Below are positions 22,932 through 29,251 of a DNA stretch of 64,000 bases, in pieces. Each line of letters starts with the position of its first letter. Positions within the stretch are counted from its first letter, which is position 1. This DNA is from Reyranella aquatilis. Its GTDB lineage: Bacteria; Pseudomonadota; Alphaproteobacteria; Reyranellales; Reyranellaceae. Both the position numbers and the translations under genes were made by a program. The notes beneath the pieces are model-generated. The model saw only the letters and a list, made by a program, of their open reading frames with translations. It made no database searches and was not told the DNA's origin. Location: NCBI RefSeq assembly GCF_020880995.1, contig NZ_JAJISD010000004.1:372001-436000 (forward strand). The letters run 5' to 3'.

Positions 22932-24263
22932 TCAGCGCACGCTCGCTTCAAAAACGCGCCGGAAGTTGCCGCCCAGAAGTTTTGCCGTTTCTTCCGCATT
23001 GAATCGGGTGCGCAGCGCGGCGGCGAGCTGCGGCAGATCGGCGTAGCTCGGCATCGCGCTGCCGCCCACGAGGCCGAGCTGGTCCGTGCCCAGGCCGACA
23101 TGATCGATGCCCGCGATGTCGACCATCCTCGCGAAGCCCTCGGTCGCATAGGCCACGACGTTGGGGAAGTAGGCGGTCACGGGCCAGATGCCGATGACGC
23201 CGCCGGTCGCGGCAATCGCACGGGCATGGTCGGGCAGGATGCGCCGCGTCCAGGCTGCCGGCCGGGTGGTGAGCGACGTATGAGACAGGACCAGTGGCTT
23301 CGTCGTGACCGCCGCCGCCTTCTTCACGAGTTCGAACGGGCCGTGCGCGACGTCGACGACGATGCCCATCGCATTGCAGCGCCGGATCACCTCGGCGCCG
23401 AACGGCGTCAGCCCGTCATGCACGCTGGGCTCGGTCTGGATGTCGCCCAGTTCGTTCGGCCGGTAATGCGTGAGCTGCAGATGGCGCAATGCCCAGCGCT
23501 GGTAGGCTTCGTCGAGCCGCTCGATCCGGCCCTCGAGGAAGTCGGCGCCTTCCGAGGCGACGATCAGCGAGGGCTGGCCCGCGCGCGCCGCGCGCAGCTC
23601 CGCCGCGGTGCGGATGATCGGCATGCCCTGCTCGCGCGCCAGCGCATGCAGGGCGGGAAACGAACGCTGACTGAACGCATAGAGTTCGCCGGGGCGCGGG
23701 TCGCGACTGGGCCGCAGGCGGCCGTCGGTCAGCTTGATGATCGGCGAATCGGAAACCACCGCCAGCGAGATCGCCGCCACGCCGCCCTGGCGCATCGGCT
23801 CGGCGACGGCCGCGGAGGAGCCCCGGCCGAAACTCAACGGCAGCAGATTGCCCGCATGGCTGTGCAGGTCGACCGCCATGCCGTCCGTCGCCTGCGCCAT
23901 GGCCGGCACCGGAAGGCAGAAGAGCGAGCTTGCGGCCATCAGCGTCCGGCGCGACAGGCGCTTCACGGGCACGGCGTCGTGCAGCTGATAGCGCCAGCCC
24001 TGATCATCCGCCGACACGCGCCAGATCCCGTCGAGCGTCACCGCCCCGTCGGCCCGTTTCATCGGCTGCCGCGCCAGCACCTCGACGACCGCCTCCGGAT
24101 TGTCGGGCACGCACCCCGGGCAGCAGCCGGGCTCGGCCATCAACAGGAAACGCTCGTCGCCGCCCAGCGCACTCGCCGCGAGGACAAACCCCGTGATCTC
24201 CACGCGCCTGCCATCGGCCTTGCCGGCGCGTGCCTTCCCGAGGTCGGTCCACGAGAGGCGCAT
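22932..24263 (-). CDS. M19 membrane dipeptidase-like protein with extra N-terminal Cys-rich domain and internal Tat signal
   Basis: A 443-residue frame with two parts. Residues 1-96 form a small domain (DGRRVEITGFVLAAS, RFLLMAEPGCCPGCVPDNPEAVVEVL, GAVTLDGIWRVSADDQGWRYQLHDA) resembling DUF3299-like proteins. Residues 98-123 look like a Tat signal (SRRTLMAASSLFCLPVPAMA). The rest is a peptidase M19 with metal ligands in DLHSHAG, ASEGADF, VDVAHGPF, SHTSL and LGTDQLG. GTG codons at 23972 or 23966 could start the secreted dipeptidase separately within the same frame. It begins eight bases after the redoxin gene. Substrates may be dipeptides or similar amides. Confidence 0.8.
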   Translation of the reverse strand: MRLSWTDLGKARAGKADGRRVEITGFVLAASALGGDERFLLMAEPGCCPGCVPDNPEAVVEVLARQPMKRADGAVTLDGIWRVSADDQGWRYQLHDAVPVKRLSRRTLMAASSLFCLPVPAMAQATDGMAVDLHSHAGNLLPLSFGRGSSAAVAEPMRQGGVAAISLAVVSDSPIIKLTDGRLRPSRDPRPGELYAFSQRSFPALHALAREQGMPIIRTAAELRAARAGQPSLIVASEGADFLEGRIERLDEAYQRWALRHLQLTHYRPNELGDIQTEPSVHDGLTPFGAEVIRRCNAMGIVVDVAHGPFELVKKAAAVTTKPLVLSHTSLTTRPAAWTRRILPDHARAIAATGGVIGIWPVTAYFPNVVAYATEGFARMVDIAGIDHVGLGTDQLGLVGGSAMPSYADLPQLAAALRTRFNAEETAKLLGGNFRRVFEASVR

Positions 24264-24271
24264 CGGTTTCC

Positions 24272-25330
24272 CTAGAGTTTGGGCGGCGGGTAGTAGGGTC
24301 GGTCGCCCAGCGCCTGCACGCGCTTCCAGAAATCGGGGCCCGATGCCTTGCCGACCTCGTCGAGGTCGGCCGCCTGACGCCACAGGCTCCACGAGTCGGG
24401 ATGCAGGCGGCTCGCTTCCGCCATCTGCCGGTCGCCTTCGGCGACGCGGCCGTTCGCCCGCAGCCACACGCCGAGACGGAAGCGCGCCCTCGCCTCGGCG
24501 ATCTCCGGCGTGACCTTCGGCAGGCTGGCGCGCGCACGATCGGCGGGCAGCGCATGCGCCCCGGTCGAGACCCAGGCGCGCACCGCGTCGAGATAGGCCT
24601 GTCGCGCGGCCAGACGCTCGGCCTGGTCTTCCGGCGTCATGGTGCGGGTCTGGAGGTCCATGCGCCGGAAGTGATCGGTCGAGCCCGCGGTCTCGGGCGG
24701 CCGTGCGATCCGCCCCTGCTCGTCGATCCAGATCGCCTGCGGCACGTTCACGAGATTGTAGAGGTCTTCCAGCCGGTGCTCGGTGTCGATCAGCTGCCAG
24801 TAGGACGACTTGGCCTGTTCGATCCAGGGACGCGCATGCTCCGCGCCGCGGCTTTCCTGCGCCACGGCCACGACCATGAACCCCTTGTCCTTCAGTTCTT
24901 CGTAGAGGGCCTGCCACACGGGCAAGTCAAAGCGGCAGCCTCACCAACTGGCCCACGTGGCGAGGAAGACCTTTCGCCCGCGCAACTGCGACAGCGAGCG
25001 CGGCACGCCATCCAGGTCCGGCAGGGTGAAGTCCGGCGCCTCGAGCCCTTCGAGGGCGGCGTTGCGCTCCTCGGGCGGCGCGCCCAGCGCCCACACGTCG
25101 CGCGCCTCGCTGGCGATCACCGGCCCGCCGAGCTTCTTCCAGAAGGCTTCGAGATCGACCTCGTTGGGCGCCAGGGCCGATGCCGGCAGCGGCACGCAGA
25201 GGTCGGCACGGCACATGCCTTCCGGCTTGAGGGTCCAGCCCGTCACCCTTTCGGCGTCGAGGGGGCTCATCCAGAGCCCGTCATGTGCGGCGATGTCGTG
25301 CTCGCCGTCCGGCGTGAGGATCTTGGTCAT
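24272..25330 (-). CDS. TlpA/ResA-like redoxin, probable selenoprotein (in-frame TGA at the active site)
   Basis: Read with TGA 24943-24941 as Sec130, this is a 352-residue protein. Residues 1-88 are an N-terminal domain with CRADLCVPLP; residues 90-225 are a redoxin domain ([38 protein letters not shown]) with the cis-Pro loop VNVPQAIWIDEQG; the C-terminus is TPR-like. The TGA falls exactly where the first cysteine of the WCxxC motif stands in TlpA relatives, the frame continues without a shift into conserved redoxin sequence, and a Cys follows two residues later. Without Sec the gene would be split in two. A pseudogene by one base change is the alternative. It precedes the M19 gene by eight bases. 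Confidence 0.8.
24908..24940 (-). promoter_or_regulatory. Candidate bacterial SECIS hairpin
   Basis: Immediately 3' of the TGA, GGCTGCC can pair with GGCAGGCC 18 bases later with one bulged G, and a GC/GT wobble extension closes the loop to TTTGACTTGCCCGT. Bacterial SECIS elements lie in this position, but the loop geometry is only a loose match to the usual rule, so this is weak support. Confidence 0.4.
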
Positions 25331-25410
25331 GCCGGAAGCCAAGCACCTTTCGGCGCGGCGGGAAAGCTCCCCGTCGCGCACTTTACGACAGTGCGTGTGT
25401 CACACCCCCG

Positions 25411-27045
25411 CTATTTCGGCGTCGAGATCGTCGTTTCCTTGGAGGTGATGAACTCGAGCAGGACGGGCACGCCCTTCTTCGTCTGTTCGATGCCGCGCTT
25501 GATGGCCGGCACGATGTCCTCCGGCTTGGTGATCCGTTCGCCGTAGCCGCCGAAGGCCCTGGCCATGGCGGCGTAGTCGCCCGAAATGTCGGTCGAGCGG
25601 TACTTCTCGGTCGACACCTTCATGATGTGCAGTTCGATCGCCATCGAGAAGTTGTTGAGCAGGATCGACATGATCGGAATGCGCTCGCGCACCGCCGTCT
25701 CGAAGTCCATGCCGGTGAAGCCGATGGCGGCGTCGCCCCAGACGTTGATGCAGAGCTTGTCCGGGCAGGCGAGCTTGGCGCCCATGGCAAGGCCGAGCCC
25801 GTAGCCCAGCTGCGTGGTCTTGCCCCAGCCGATGTAGGTGTGCGGCGCGGTCGTCTTCCAGAACGGCGAGAGCTGGTCGCGCGGGCTGCCGGCGTCGTGG
25901 GTGATGATCGTGTTGGCCTTGTCGACCGTGTGCTGCAGGTCCCACAGCACGCGATAGGGATTGAGCGGCGCCTCGTTGTTGGTGAGCTTGGGCATCCACT
26001 CCTTAAGCCACTCGTCGGCGATCGGCTTGATCTCGGCCACCACCGGCGCGGCATCGCGCTGCTTGCCGCCCACGAGCTTGCTGCACTCGTCGATCATGGC
26101 GCGCAGCGCGAGCTTGGCATCGCCGATCAGGCCGTACTGGCACCGCACGTCCTTGTTGAGATGGTTGGGATCCAGCGTCGTGTGGATCACCGTCTTGCCC
26201 TTCGGCATCGAGATGCCGAAGTTCGTCTCGGTGAAGGAACAGCCGATGCCGAACAGCACGTCGCACTTGTCGAGGAAGTGGCGGACCTGCCGGGGATAGG
26301 CACGGCCGCCGGAGCCCAGCGACAGCGGATGGGTCTCGTCGAAGCTGCTCTTGCCCTGAAGCGAGGTGCAGACCGGAATCGCCAGCAGCTCGGCCAGTTC
26401 CTTCAGCTCGTCATAGGCTTCGGCCCAGTGCACGCCGTGGCCCGCATAGATGACCGGGCGCCTGGCCTCGACCAGTACCCTGGCGGCTTCCTTCACCGCC
26501 GCCGGATCGGGACCGTAGCGCGTCGGCTTGATCGGCTCGTAGGTCAGCGGATCGGGCGCGTCCTCGCCATTGGCCTCGGCCGGGAACTCGATGATGACCG
26601 GCGAACCGCGGCCGTTGCGCAGCAGACTGAAGGCCCGGCGCATGATGTTCTCGATGTCGGCGCCCGAGGTGATCGGCTCGGCGTGCTTGGCGACATGCGC
26701 CATGGTGATGGTCGAGTTGAAGTTCGGCGGCACGTGCGCGATGCGCCGCGGATAGCCCGCCGGGATCACCAGCAGCGGCACCGATTCGCCGTAGGCCTGG
26801 GCCACGCCGCCATAGGCGTTCTCCGAACCCGGGCCGCTCTGCATGCAGAACACGCCCATCTTGCGGCCCTTGGTCAGGCGCGACATGGCGTCGGCCATGT
26901 GCAGGCCGATGCGCTCCTGGCGCACGATGATCGGGCGGATGTCGATCGCCGCGCAGTGCTCGATCAGATGGTTGACGGGATAGGCGAAGAGATACTCGAC
27001 CCCCTCGCGCTTCAGGATTTCGGCGACGGCCGGGCCGGTCTTCAT
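25411..27045 (-). CDS. Thiamine-diphosphate-dependent enzyme, acetolactate synthase-like
   Basis: A 544-residue ThDP enzyme of the acetolactate synthase/benzoylformate decarboxylase fold. The N-terminal Pyr domain has the cofactor-activating Glu in VRQERIGLHMADAMSRL; the PP domain has the GDx-N(26)-NN metal motif from WGDAAIGFTGMDFETAV to SILLNNFS. The middle FAD/nucleotide-like domain shows SGGRAYPRQVRHFLDKCDVLFGIGCSFTETNFGI. The length is typical. Stand-alone members of this type serve as oxalyl-CoA-like decarboxylases or 2-oxoacid lyases; the substrate is not evident. No regulatory small subunit (ilvH) lies nearby, arguing against valine/isoleucine synthesis. Confidence 0.88.
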   Translation of the reverse strand: MKTGPAVAEILKREGVEYLFAYPVNHLIEHCAAIDIRPIIVRQERIGLHMADAMSRLTKGRKMGVFCMQSGPGSENAYGGVAQAYGESVPLLVIPAGYPRRIAHVPPNFNSTITMAHVAKHAEPITSGADIENIMRRAFSLLRNGRGSPVIIEFPAEANGEDAPDPLTYEPIKPTRYGPDPAAVKEAARVLVEARRPVIYAGHGVHWAEAYDELKELAELLAIPVCTSLQGKSSFDETHPLSLGSGGRAYPRQVRHFLDKCDVLFGIGCSFTETNFGISMPKGKTVIHTTLDPNHLNKDVRCQYGLIGDAKLALRAMIDECSKLVGGKQRDAAPVVAEIKPIADEWLKEWMPKLTNNEAPLNPYRVLWDLQHTVDKANTIITHDAGSPRDQLSPFWKTTAPHTYIGWGKTTQLGYGLGLAMGAKLACPDKLCINVWGDAAIGFTGMDFETAVRERIPIMSILLNNFSMAIELHIMKVSTEKYRSTDISGDYAAMARAFGGYGERITKPEDIVPAIKRGIEQTKKGVPVLLEFITSKETTISTPK

Positions 27046-27120: not shown

Positions 27121-28302
27121 TTACTTGTTCAGTTCCTTCATCGCGCTGTCGAGGCCGCCCAGGGTGAGCGGGAACATGCGGTTGCCGGTGAGCTGCTGCA
27201 GCAGCTGGATCGACGGCGTGTAGCTCCAGTGCCGCTCGGGCACCGGATTCAGCCATACCATGCTGCGATAGGTGTCGGAGACGCGCTGGATCCAGGTCTG
27301 CCCGGATTCCTCGTTCCAGTGCTCCACCGAGCCGCCCGGATAGGCGATCTCGTAGGGGCTCATCGAGGCGTCGCCGACGAACAGCACCTTGTAGTCCGGC
27401 GGATAGGTGTGCAGCAGCTGCTGCGTCGAGAAGGTGTCGACGTGGCGGCGGCGATTGTCCTTCCACAGCTTCTCGTAGAGGCAGTTGTGGAAGTAGAAGA
27501 ACTCGAGGTGCTTGAACTCCGAGCGCGCCGCCGAGAACAGCTCCTCGCAGACGCGGATATGCGCGTCCATCGAGCCGCCGATGTCGAACAGCAGCAGCAG
27601 CTTCACCTTGTTGCGCCGCTCCGGCACCATCTTGATGTCGAGGTAGCCGGCATTGCGCGCGGTCGAGCGGATCGTGTCGGGCATGTCGAGCTCGACCTCG
27701 GCGCCCTCGCGCGCGAACTTGCGCAGGCGGCGCAGCGCGATCTTGATGTTGCGCGTGCCGATCTCGACCGTGTCGTCGAGGTTCTTGTACTCGCGCTTGT
27801 CCCACACCTTGACGGCGCGACCCTCGCGACCCTTGTCCTGGCCGATGCGCACGCCCTCGGGATTGAAGCCGTAGGCGCCGAACGGCGAGGTGCCGGCCGT
27901 GCCGATCCACTTGCTGCCGCCCTGGTGGCGCTTCTGCTGCTCCTCGAGACGCTTCTTCAGCGTCTCCATGAGCTTCTCCCAGCCGCCCATCGCCTCGATC
28001 TGCTTCTTCTCCTCCTCGGTCAGAAGCTTCTCGGCCAGCTTGCGCAGCCATTCCTCGGGAATTTCGGCGGCGATGCCCTCGGCGGGCAGCGCCTCGAGGC
28101 CCTTGAAGACGGTGCCGAACACGCGGTCGAACTTGTCGAGGTTGCGCTCGTCCTTCACCAGCGCGGCGCGCGACAGATAGTAGAAGTCGTCGACGCTGTA
28201 GTCGGCCACTCCCTTGTCCATCGCCTCCATCAGGGCGAGATATTCCTTGATGGAGACCGGCAGCTTGGCATTGCGCAATTCGAGGAAGAAATTCACGAAC
28301 AT
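27121..28302 (-). CDS. VWA domain protein (CoxE-like), partner of MoxR ATPase
   Basis: A 393-residue cytosolic protein. The C-terminal half is a von Willebrand A-like domain with the MIDAS-type loop LLFDIGGSMDAHI near residue 247 and a further metal-site segment FVGDASMSPYEI. The N-terminal half is helical and charged (LLTEEEKKQIEAMGGWEKLMETLKKRLEEQQ). The arrangement, 22 bases after a MoxR-type AAA ATPase, is the standard pair that remodels or inserts cofactors into target enzymes (as CoxE with CoxD). No carbon monoxide dehydrogenase genes are adjacent, so the client here is unknown. Confidence 0.9.
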   Translation of the reverse strand: MFVNFFLELRNAKLPVSIKEYLALMEAMDKGVADYSVDDFYYLSRAALVKDERNLDKFDRVFGTVFKGLEALPAEGIAAEIPEEWLRKLAEKLLTEEEKKQIEAMGGWEKLMETLKKRLEEQQKRHQGGSKWIGTAGTSPFGAYGFNPEGVRIGQDKGREGRAVKVWDKREYKNLDDTVEIGTRNIKIALRRLRKFAREGAEVELDMPDTIRSTARNAGYLDIKMVPERRNKVKLLLLFDIGGSMDAHIRVCEELFSAARSEFKHLEFFYFHNCLYEKLWKDNRRRHVDTFSTQQLLHTYPPDYKVLFVGDASMSPYEIAYPGGSVEHWNEESGQTWIQRVSDTYRSMVWLNPVPERHWSYTPSIQLLQQLTGNRMFPLTLGGLDSAMKELNK

Positions 28303-28324
28303 CGCGTTCTCCTCTCCGCCGTGA

Positions 28325-29173
28325 TTACTGGCGCTGCTCCCGCCGCGCCATGAAGGCCAGGCGCTCGAACAGATGGACGTCCTGCTCGTTCTTGAGCAGC
28401 GCGCCGTGCAGCGGCGGGATCAGCTGCTTGCTGTCCTTCGACCGCAGCGACTCCGGCGACATGTCCTCGACCATCAGCAGCTTCAGCCAGTCGAGCAGCT
28501 CGGAGGTCGACGGCTTCTTCTTGAGGCCCGGCACTTCGCGGATGTCGTAGAACACGTTCAGCGCCTCGCGCAGCAGGTTGCGCTGCAGGTCGGGGAAGTG
28601 GACGTCGACGATCTGCGTCATCGTCTCGCGATCGGGGAAGCGGATGTAGTGGAAGAAGCAGCGGCGCAGGAAGGCGTCCGGCAGCTCCTTCTCGTTGTTC
28701 GAGGTGATCATCACGATCGGGCGCTGCTCCGCCTTGATCGTCTGCTGCGTCTCGTAGACGTAGAACTGCATGCGATCGAGTTCGAGCAGCAGGTCGTTCG
28801 GGAACTCGATGTCGGCCTTGTCGATCTCGTCGATCAGCAGGATCGGCCGCGTCTCGGAGGTAAAGGCCTCCCACATCTTGCCGCGCTTGATGTAGTTGCC
28901 GATGTCCTTCACGCGCTCGTCGCCGAGCTGGCTGTCGCGCAGGCGCGAGACGGCGTCGTACTCGTAGAGGCCCTGCTGCGCCTTGGTGGTCGACTTGATG
29001 TGCCACTCGATGATCGGCGCGTTCAGCGCCTTGGCCACCTCGTGCGCCAGCACGGTCTTGCCGGTGCCCGGCTCGCCCTTGATGAGCAGCGGGCGCTGCA
29101 GCGCGATGGACGCGTTAACGGCAACGCGCAGGTCGTCGCTGGCAACGTAGGAGTCGGTACCGGTAAATTTCAT
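28325..29173 (-). CDS. MoxR-family AAA+ ATPase
   Basis: A 282-residue AAA+ protein. Walker A is GEPGTGKTVLA near residue 37, Walker B is ILLIDEIDKAD near residue 105, sensor 1 is VMITSNNEKELPDAFLRRC with the arginine finger. The ATG at 29173 starts the family-typical MKFTGTDSYVASDDLRVAVNAS; sequence further upstream is not conserved. It forms a chaperone pair with the VWA protein that follows. It sits downstream of the cytochrome b561 gene by 78 bases on the same strand. Confidence 0.93.
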   Translation of the reverse strand: MKFTGTDSYVASDDLRVAVNASIALQRPLLIKGEPGTGKTVLAHEVAKALNAPIIEWHIKSTTKAQQGLYEYDAVSRLRDSQLGDERVKDIGNYIKRGKMWEAFTSETRPILLIDEIDKADIEFPNDLLLELDRMQFYVYETQQTIKAEQRPIVMITSNNEKELPDAFLRRCFFHYIRFPDRETMTQIVDVHFPDLQRNLLREALNVFYDIREVPGLKKKPSTSELLDWLKLLMVEDMSPESLRSKDSKQLIPPLHGALLKNEQDVHLFERLAFMARREQRQ

Positions 29174-29251
29174 GGTGCAAAATCCAAATTTCACTGTTGT
29201 TTCAACCACCCTAGAGGGGCGGTTTCGGGCCAGCAAGGCCGCGCGAGCAGG

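Follow-up and report, generated by a model that had tools for sequence, protein, structure and literature searches.

The window, a 64,000-nucleotide stretch of DNA from Reyranella aquatilis, carries on its minus strand a gene at positions 24272-25330 that would encode a protein of 352 residues including one selenocysteine (Sec), terminated by a TAG stop at 24274-24272. Translation of the window demonstrated that the frame from 25330 to 24272 is open throughout except for a TGA at 24943-24941, precisely where an earlier note on this DNA had located the sole interruption of a single frame. Translation table 11 splits the gene into a 146-residue open reading frame, which begins with GTG at 25381, ahead of the ATG at 25330, and a second one of 217 residues. 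Read as Sec, the codon at 24941-24943 becomes U130, and TGA is kept at this codon in relatives; Cys132 (24935-24937), the presumed resolving Cys, is found in all 48 of the aligned proteins. The active-site motif thus reads W126-A-S-W-U-G-C132, which satisfies the WAxxUGC pattern and confirms that UGC replaces CxxC at this site, as had been claimed. An M19 dipeptidase-like gene begins the downstream neighbourhood on the same strand (22932-24263, at a distance of 8 nt) and often, not always, adjoins the selenoprotein gene, while a thiamine-pyrophosphate (TPP) enzyme is encoded upstream, also on the minus strand (25411-27045). Still further upstream, minus-strand positions 27121-29236 hold a CoxE-like VWA gene and an adjoining AAA gene, the latter of which we take to be MoxR-like.

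Comparison of loci revealed that the TPP enzyme lies upstream in all 28 near loci, at no more than 0.53 kb except in L011 (3.4 kb), and the CoxE gene is present in 23. The M19 gene was found within 1 kb downstream in 19 of the 28 (two partial matches; the contig of L027 ends too early), in one of three further loci of the same genus, and in two of 20 loci of other genera. In other genera the gene has varied neighbours, of which 20 of 38 proteins were annotated, and the loci compared revealed no partner gene conserved beyond the genus. We infer a self-contained enzyme, without a fixed partner, that draws on general cell reductants.

Three parts can be distinguished in the predicted protein. The N-terminal module (residues 1-95; 25046-25330) contains the invariant C40 (25213-25211) and C45 (25198-25196), the redoxin domain of thioredoxin fold (residues 95-210; 24701-25048) holds the UGC motif and the cis-Pro loop NVP, and the C-terminal region (residues 211-352; 24275-24700) is mostly helical and weakly TPR-like (TPR_14, E 0.023, below cut-off). 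The Pfam families PF00578 (4.7e-16; 59.3 bits against a gathering score of 26) and PF08534 (3.7e-11) match across the TGA, over residues 95-209. PF00578 (AhpC/TSA) also includes TlpA-like proteins. The earlier note had asserted redoxin homology on both sides of the TGA and its location at the first active-site Cys; congruent with this, the AhpC-TSA and Redoxin families span the codon, the loop NVPQAIW is present, and in a profile alignment U130 falls opposite the leading Cys of the CxxC of ResA. ResA is also the closest protein in the PDB to the redoxin part by sequence (7e-16), and a Foldseek fold search returned thioredoxin-fold proteins among the 50 matches listed, with ResA first (E 2.1e-6).

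Alignment of the family underscores four positions, 40, 45, 130 and 132, which are Cys or Sec in all 48 proteins; of the remaining columns, 282 alone reaches five Cys. Four of 52 rows were left out of this alignment, namely L038, L069 and L073 (partial) and L063 (the window itself). A search with the N-terminal module alone in 385 genomes of the class, scoring at most 14 candidates per genome, gave 25 matches at E<=1e-5, all of them at the redoxin gene of the same 22 carriers, so that the module seems to be confined to this family. It scores below the cut-off of every Pfam family, and no structural match to it was identified among the 50 Foldseek matches listed, for which aligned ranges were not printed. 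An AlphaFold model generated from 25 sequences (the window and 24 of 30 fetched loci, leaving out L011 and L012 (close to L010), L016 (extra stop), and L033, L037 and L038 (partial)) has a mean pLDDT of 63.7. It is confident mainly for residues 1-80, falls below 50 at residues 127-134 and is of low confidence toward the C-terminal end.

The designation as a TlpA/ResA-like redoxin in the earlier note stands in part. The thioredoxin fold, the Trp before the reactive residue and the cis-Pro loop (as suggested by NVP) are shared with ResA/TlpA; in contrast, those proteins have CxxC where the window protein has UGC, one residue shorter, and it additionally exhibits extra N- and C-terminal regions, the former with the invariant Cys pair. 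A signal peptide or membrane anchor is typical of TlpA/ResA, the role of which is extracytoplasmic. Here, by hydropathy, no signal-like stretch was seen, the top 15-residue Kyte-Doolittle mean within residues 1-60 being 1.06, at residue 39. As no hydrophobic N-terminal stretch was seen, the protein is probably cytosolic.

The TGA is maintained in every relative that covers it, as the earlier note had proposed to check. Among named relatives of the gene, the nearest come from Reyranella assemblies, at 94% protein identity. Among 30 loci fetched from named genomes one (L037) ends short of the codon, and the remaining 29 all have TGA; L026 and L027 carry GCK in place of GCR with the U kept. Similarly, a search of 385 genomes of the class recovered 25 matches above 230 bits in 22 genomes, all 25 with TGA at the verified position, and the next match drops to 71.6 bits, with eight of eight inspected lower matches being CxxC redoxins. 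In the host order, the gene is present in 71 of 76 genomes, including 51 of 51 of good quality, and all 78 matches have one in-frame TGA, counted irrespective of codon position. These three sets overlap, and their counts are not additive. A full-length Cys form of the family was found neither among the fetched loci nor in the 385 class and 76 order genomes, bearing in mind that the class search scored at most five candidates per genome, a depth at which a weaker Cys form may have escaped, and the order search up to 23. A Cys does occupy the Sec-equivalent position in aligned ResA chains, and in none of the full-length family matches found. A phylum sample of 398 genomes (class members included) yielded two carriers, both of the same genus, and 77 plasmid records gave generic matches only, below 60% identity, none covering 80% of the query. 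Separately, the genomes G123, G227 and G091 hold a second, diverged selenoprotein copy (L102, L103 and L104) with TGA kept, in the motifs AYASWUGC and WSSWUGC.

Downstream of the UGA, a putative bacterial SECIS hairpin, C(U)UGCC-CGUGU-GGCAG, was located on the minus strand at 24911-24926 (loop 24920-24916), 20 nt after the UGA. We aligned 45 distinct of 52 sequences, dropping identical rows; a hairpin of UGCC/GGCA or UGUC/GGCA with one further pair is common to all, with standard pairing in 225 of 225 pair cells. The loop is CGUGU in 44 of the 45, and its position 25 (G) is invariant. The available part of PMC10778597 gives a distance of 16-37 nt from the UGA to the bacterial SECIS loop, within which the 20 nt here falls, and that of PMC4607533 describes a hairpin of 5/6 bp with an invariant loop G, which the present one resembles. 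Support from covariation depends on the form considered. For the 19-33 pairing there is none (201 of 500 shuffles do as well), and for a bulged form, with 18-33 paired and 19 unpaired, one pair is changed on both sides in three sequences and one of 500 shuffles reaches the covariation score; all three sequences are from one genus, so this double change is probably a single event. Outside the alignment, L103 and L104 permit the 18-33 pairing (U-A) and not that of 19-33, while the divergent L102 retains the hairpin with a differing loop, AGGUU. Synonymous constraint, assessed in 343 ten-codon windows across 49 sequences, ranks first at codons 135-144, over the hairpin (0.286; mean of the windows 0.107, sd 0.052), although codons 190-199 are nearly as constrained (peak of 0.269 near codon 190) and the first ten codons past the UGA rank 23rd. 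Leu136 is TTG in 37 of 49 sequences, as compared to 153 of 1,513 other Leu codons (50 sequences), the sequences being related and not independent. Folded alone, the 50-nt stretch of the window adopts a minimum-energy fold that differs from the hairpin, the z-score of which is only -1.46.

We then turn to the decoding machinery. No Rfam match at gathering scores and no tRNA (ARAGORN) were detected in the window; the Sec genes are elsewhere in the host genome (6.0 Mb, 99.8% complete), where selA, selB, selD and tRNA-Sec, the genes that the earlier note had suggested looking for, are all present. The tRNA-Sec is at C12:20769-20860 (RF01852, 71.5 bits) with the anticodon UCA called by ARAGORN, a call that matters because the RF01852 model also matches tRNA-Ser: the next match in the genome is a tRNA-Ser (L002) at 48.3 bits, likewise over the cut-off. 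On the same contig reside selB (C12:21331-23175, 456 bits) and selA (C12:23959-25272, 563 bits), and selD is on C8 (295 bits), inside a 741-residue frame with an extra N-terminal half. selD forms the C-terminal half of this frame (L107, 4783-7008, minus strand), and the N-terminal half looks by eye like an FAD/NADH oxidoreductase; we read the frame as an NDH-SelD fusion, of a kind described in the available part of PMC2398784. Near selA, selB and tRNA-Sec, an FdnG-type formate dehydrogenase alpha subunit (C12:27946-30996, L108) holds one TGA, at ENQARI-U-HGPTVAS, which brings the selenoproteins of the genome to at least two. FdnG would be served by the same Sec machinery as the redoxin, the proteins themselves being unrelated. 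In the class sample, selA is present in 56 of 385 genomes, in 22 of 22 carriers of the redoxin gene versus 34 of 363 non-carriers, without exception (Fisher 6e-21, a p-value that is too small since the genomes share ancestry and are not phylogenetically independent).

How, then, is the TGA to be understood? As a true nonsense codon, it would mark a pseudogene or a sequencing error, and indeed the frame is broken under table 11, and three relatives (L016, L098/G313 and G810) have an extra TAG or TAA in frame. However, the same TGA recurs in the 29 covering loci from other assemblies and one in-frame TGA in every order match, and dN/dS after the TGA is 0.06-0.24 in eight pairs, below the pre-TGA value in six, as judged from which purifying selection acts on both sides of the codon. 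The extra stops are possibly decay or sequencing errors, the close relatives being otherwise mostly intact rather than scattered with frame damage, and the earlier assessment that chance nonsense is unlikely is upheld; we consider a nonsense codon extremely improbable. Two separate proteins might also be made, one stopping at the TGA and the other, with the redoxin and the tail, translated from a downstream restart, for which the 217-residue open reading frame offers a TTG start at 24925. Such a restart would fall at residue 136, so that U130 and C132 would not occur together in either product, even though position 132 is invariant; nor would there be pressure to keep TGA over TAA or TAG, yet it is TGA in all relatives that cover the codon, and we give this arrangement scarcely any credence. 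A changed code, with UGA reassigned to for example Trp or Cys and no selenium involved, would account for UGA being read as sense in both the redoxin gene and FdnG. It conflicts with the presence of selA, selB and selD, with the identity of the tRNA at the best RF01852 match, which has the anticodon UCA and is tRNA-Sec, and with the use of TGA as the stop of three genes in the window (M19, MoCo-binding and cytochrome b561). As TGA is the stop of three of eight neighbouring genes examined, the code is unchanged, and reassignment has a negligible likelihood. With the Sec machinery in the genome and the TGA kept in relatives, the claim of a selenoprotein is supported, and none of the outcomes listed as refuting in the earlier note has arisen; we assign a probability of about 95% to the gene encoding a ResA/TlpA-like, probably cytosolic selenoprotein with UGA decoded as Sec.

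Decoding would be accomplished by SelB with Sec-tRNA(Sec) via the hairpin, giving a product with a ResA/TlpA-like thioredoxin fold in which the attacking residue would be selenocysteine. In a possible cycle, the selenolate of U130 would attack a peroxide or a disulphide as its oxidised substrate, whereafter C132 would close an Se-S bond across one glycine, and electrons would be resupplied by cytosolic thiol systems or through the N-terminal module with its invariant C40/C45 pair. For these steps taken jointly we see roughly even odds. Since no signal-like stretch was seen, a cytosolic reducing or peroxide-removing role would appear more fitting than the extracytoplasmic one of TlpA/ResA. Instead of reduction, the selenoprotein may serve thiol oxidation or the handling of metal or selenium: the UGC pair together with C40/C45 could bind metal or carry selenium or sulphur, the four Cys/Sec positions are invariant, and no conserved redox partner gene was found. 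The fold and the active-site position nevertheless match those of the ResA/TlpA oxidoreductases, and we regard such a function as unlikely.

Judged by its sequence, this is a genuine selenoprotein gene of an already described kind, close relatives of which are already catalogued. The NCBIfam equivalog model NF041054 (WAxxUGC_long, 'ResA-like WAxxUGC motif-containing protein') matches residues 24-351 at 2.9e-87, sharing the WAxxUGC motif and the Sec position. The score of 293.2 bits is under the curated cut-off of 300, and we therefore view the protein as a close relative within the NF041054 family and not as a certified equivalog; a relative that is 71% identical (L054, from the same place as L084) scores 316.3. 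By genome-search scores, matches over the cut-off occur in seven of 76 order genomes though 71 carry the gene, which suggests that automated annotation may overlook the gene or cut it short.

Redoxin selenoproteins of the UGC type had been published by 2008: UGC-containing Prx-like and TlpA-family selenoproteins are tabulated in the available parts of PMC2398784 (2008) and the reviews PMC9312934 and PMC13188914, and, compared by table description, share the pfam00578 or cd02966 redoxin and UGC with the present protein. PMC2398784 reports 46 Sec and 855 Cys forms of the UGC Prx-like type in ocean samples, and almost every family in the available section of its table has Cys homologues, whereas here no full-length Cys form was found in the genomes searched. 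The string UGC is absent from the main text of PMC5029168, one of two works to which a 2026 review refers for the UGC family. Open-access searches under WAxxUGC, NF041054, or selenoprotein with ResA-like returned nothing, and the titles and abstract openings of open-access literature on selenoproteins in Reyranella contain nothing on a redoxin family.

That many selenoproteins have counterparts with Cys raises the question of what selenium is retained for. The present family, Sec in every full-length relative found, would offer a clean system for what selenium does beyond sulphur. The points worth keeping are that no full-length Cys form appeared in the genomes searched and that the Cys-pair module is confined to this gene in the 385 genomes sampled. 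We tentatively propose, at somewhat less than even odds, an obligate-Sec redoxin family, with no change to Cys, near-universal presence in the order, and an unusual UGC site coupled to a private Cys-pair module, in which case the chemistry may truly need selenium. As a minor observation on the downstream neighbour, inspection by eye of the M19 gene indicated an N-terminal extension of about 100 residues with GCCPGC ahead of a signal-like stretch, and in L085 and L096 the aligned part of its homologues begins only at residue 102-103.
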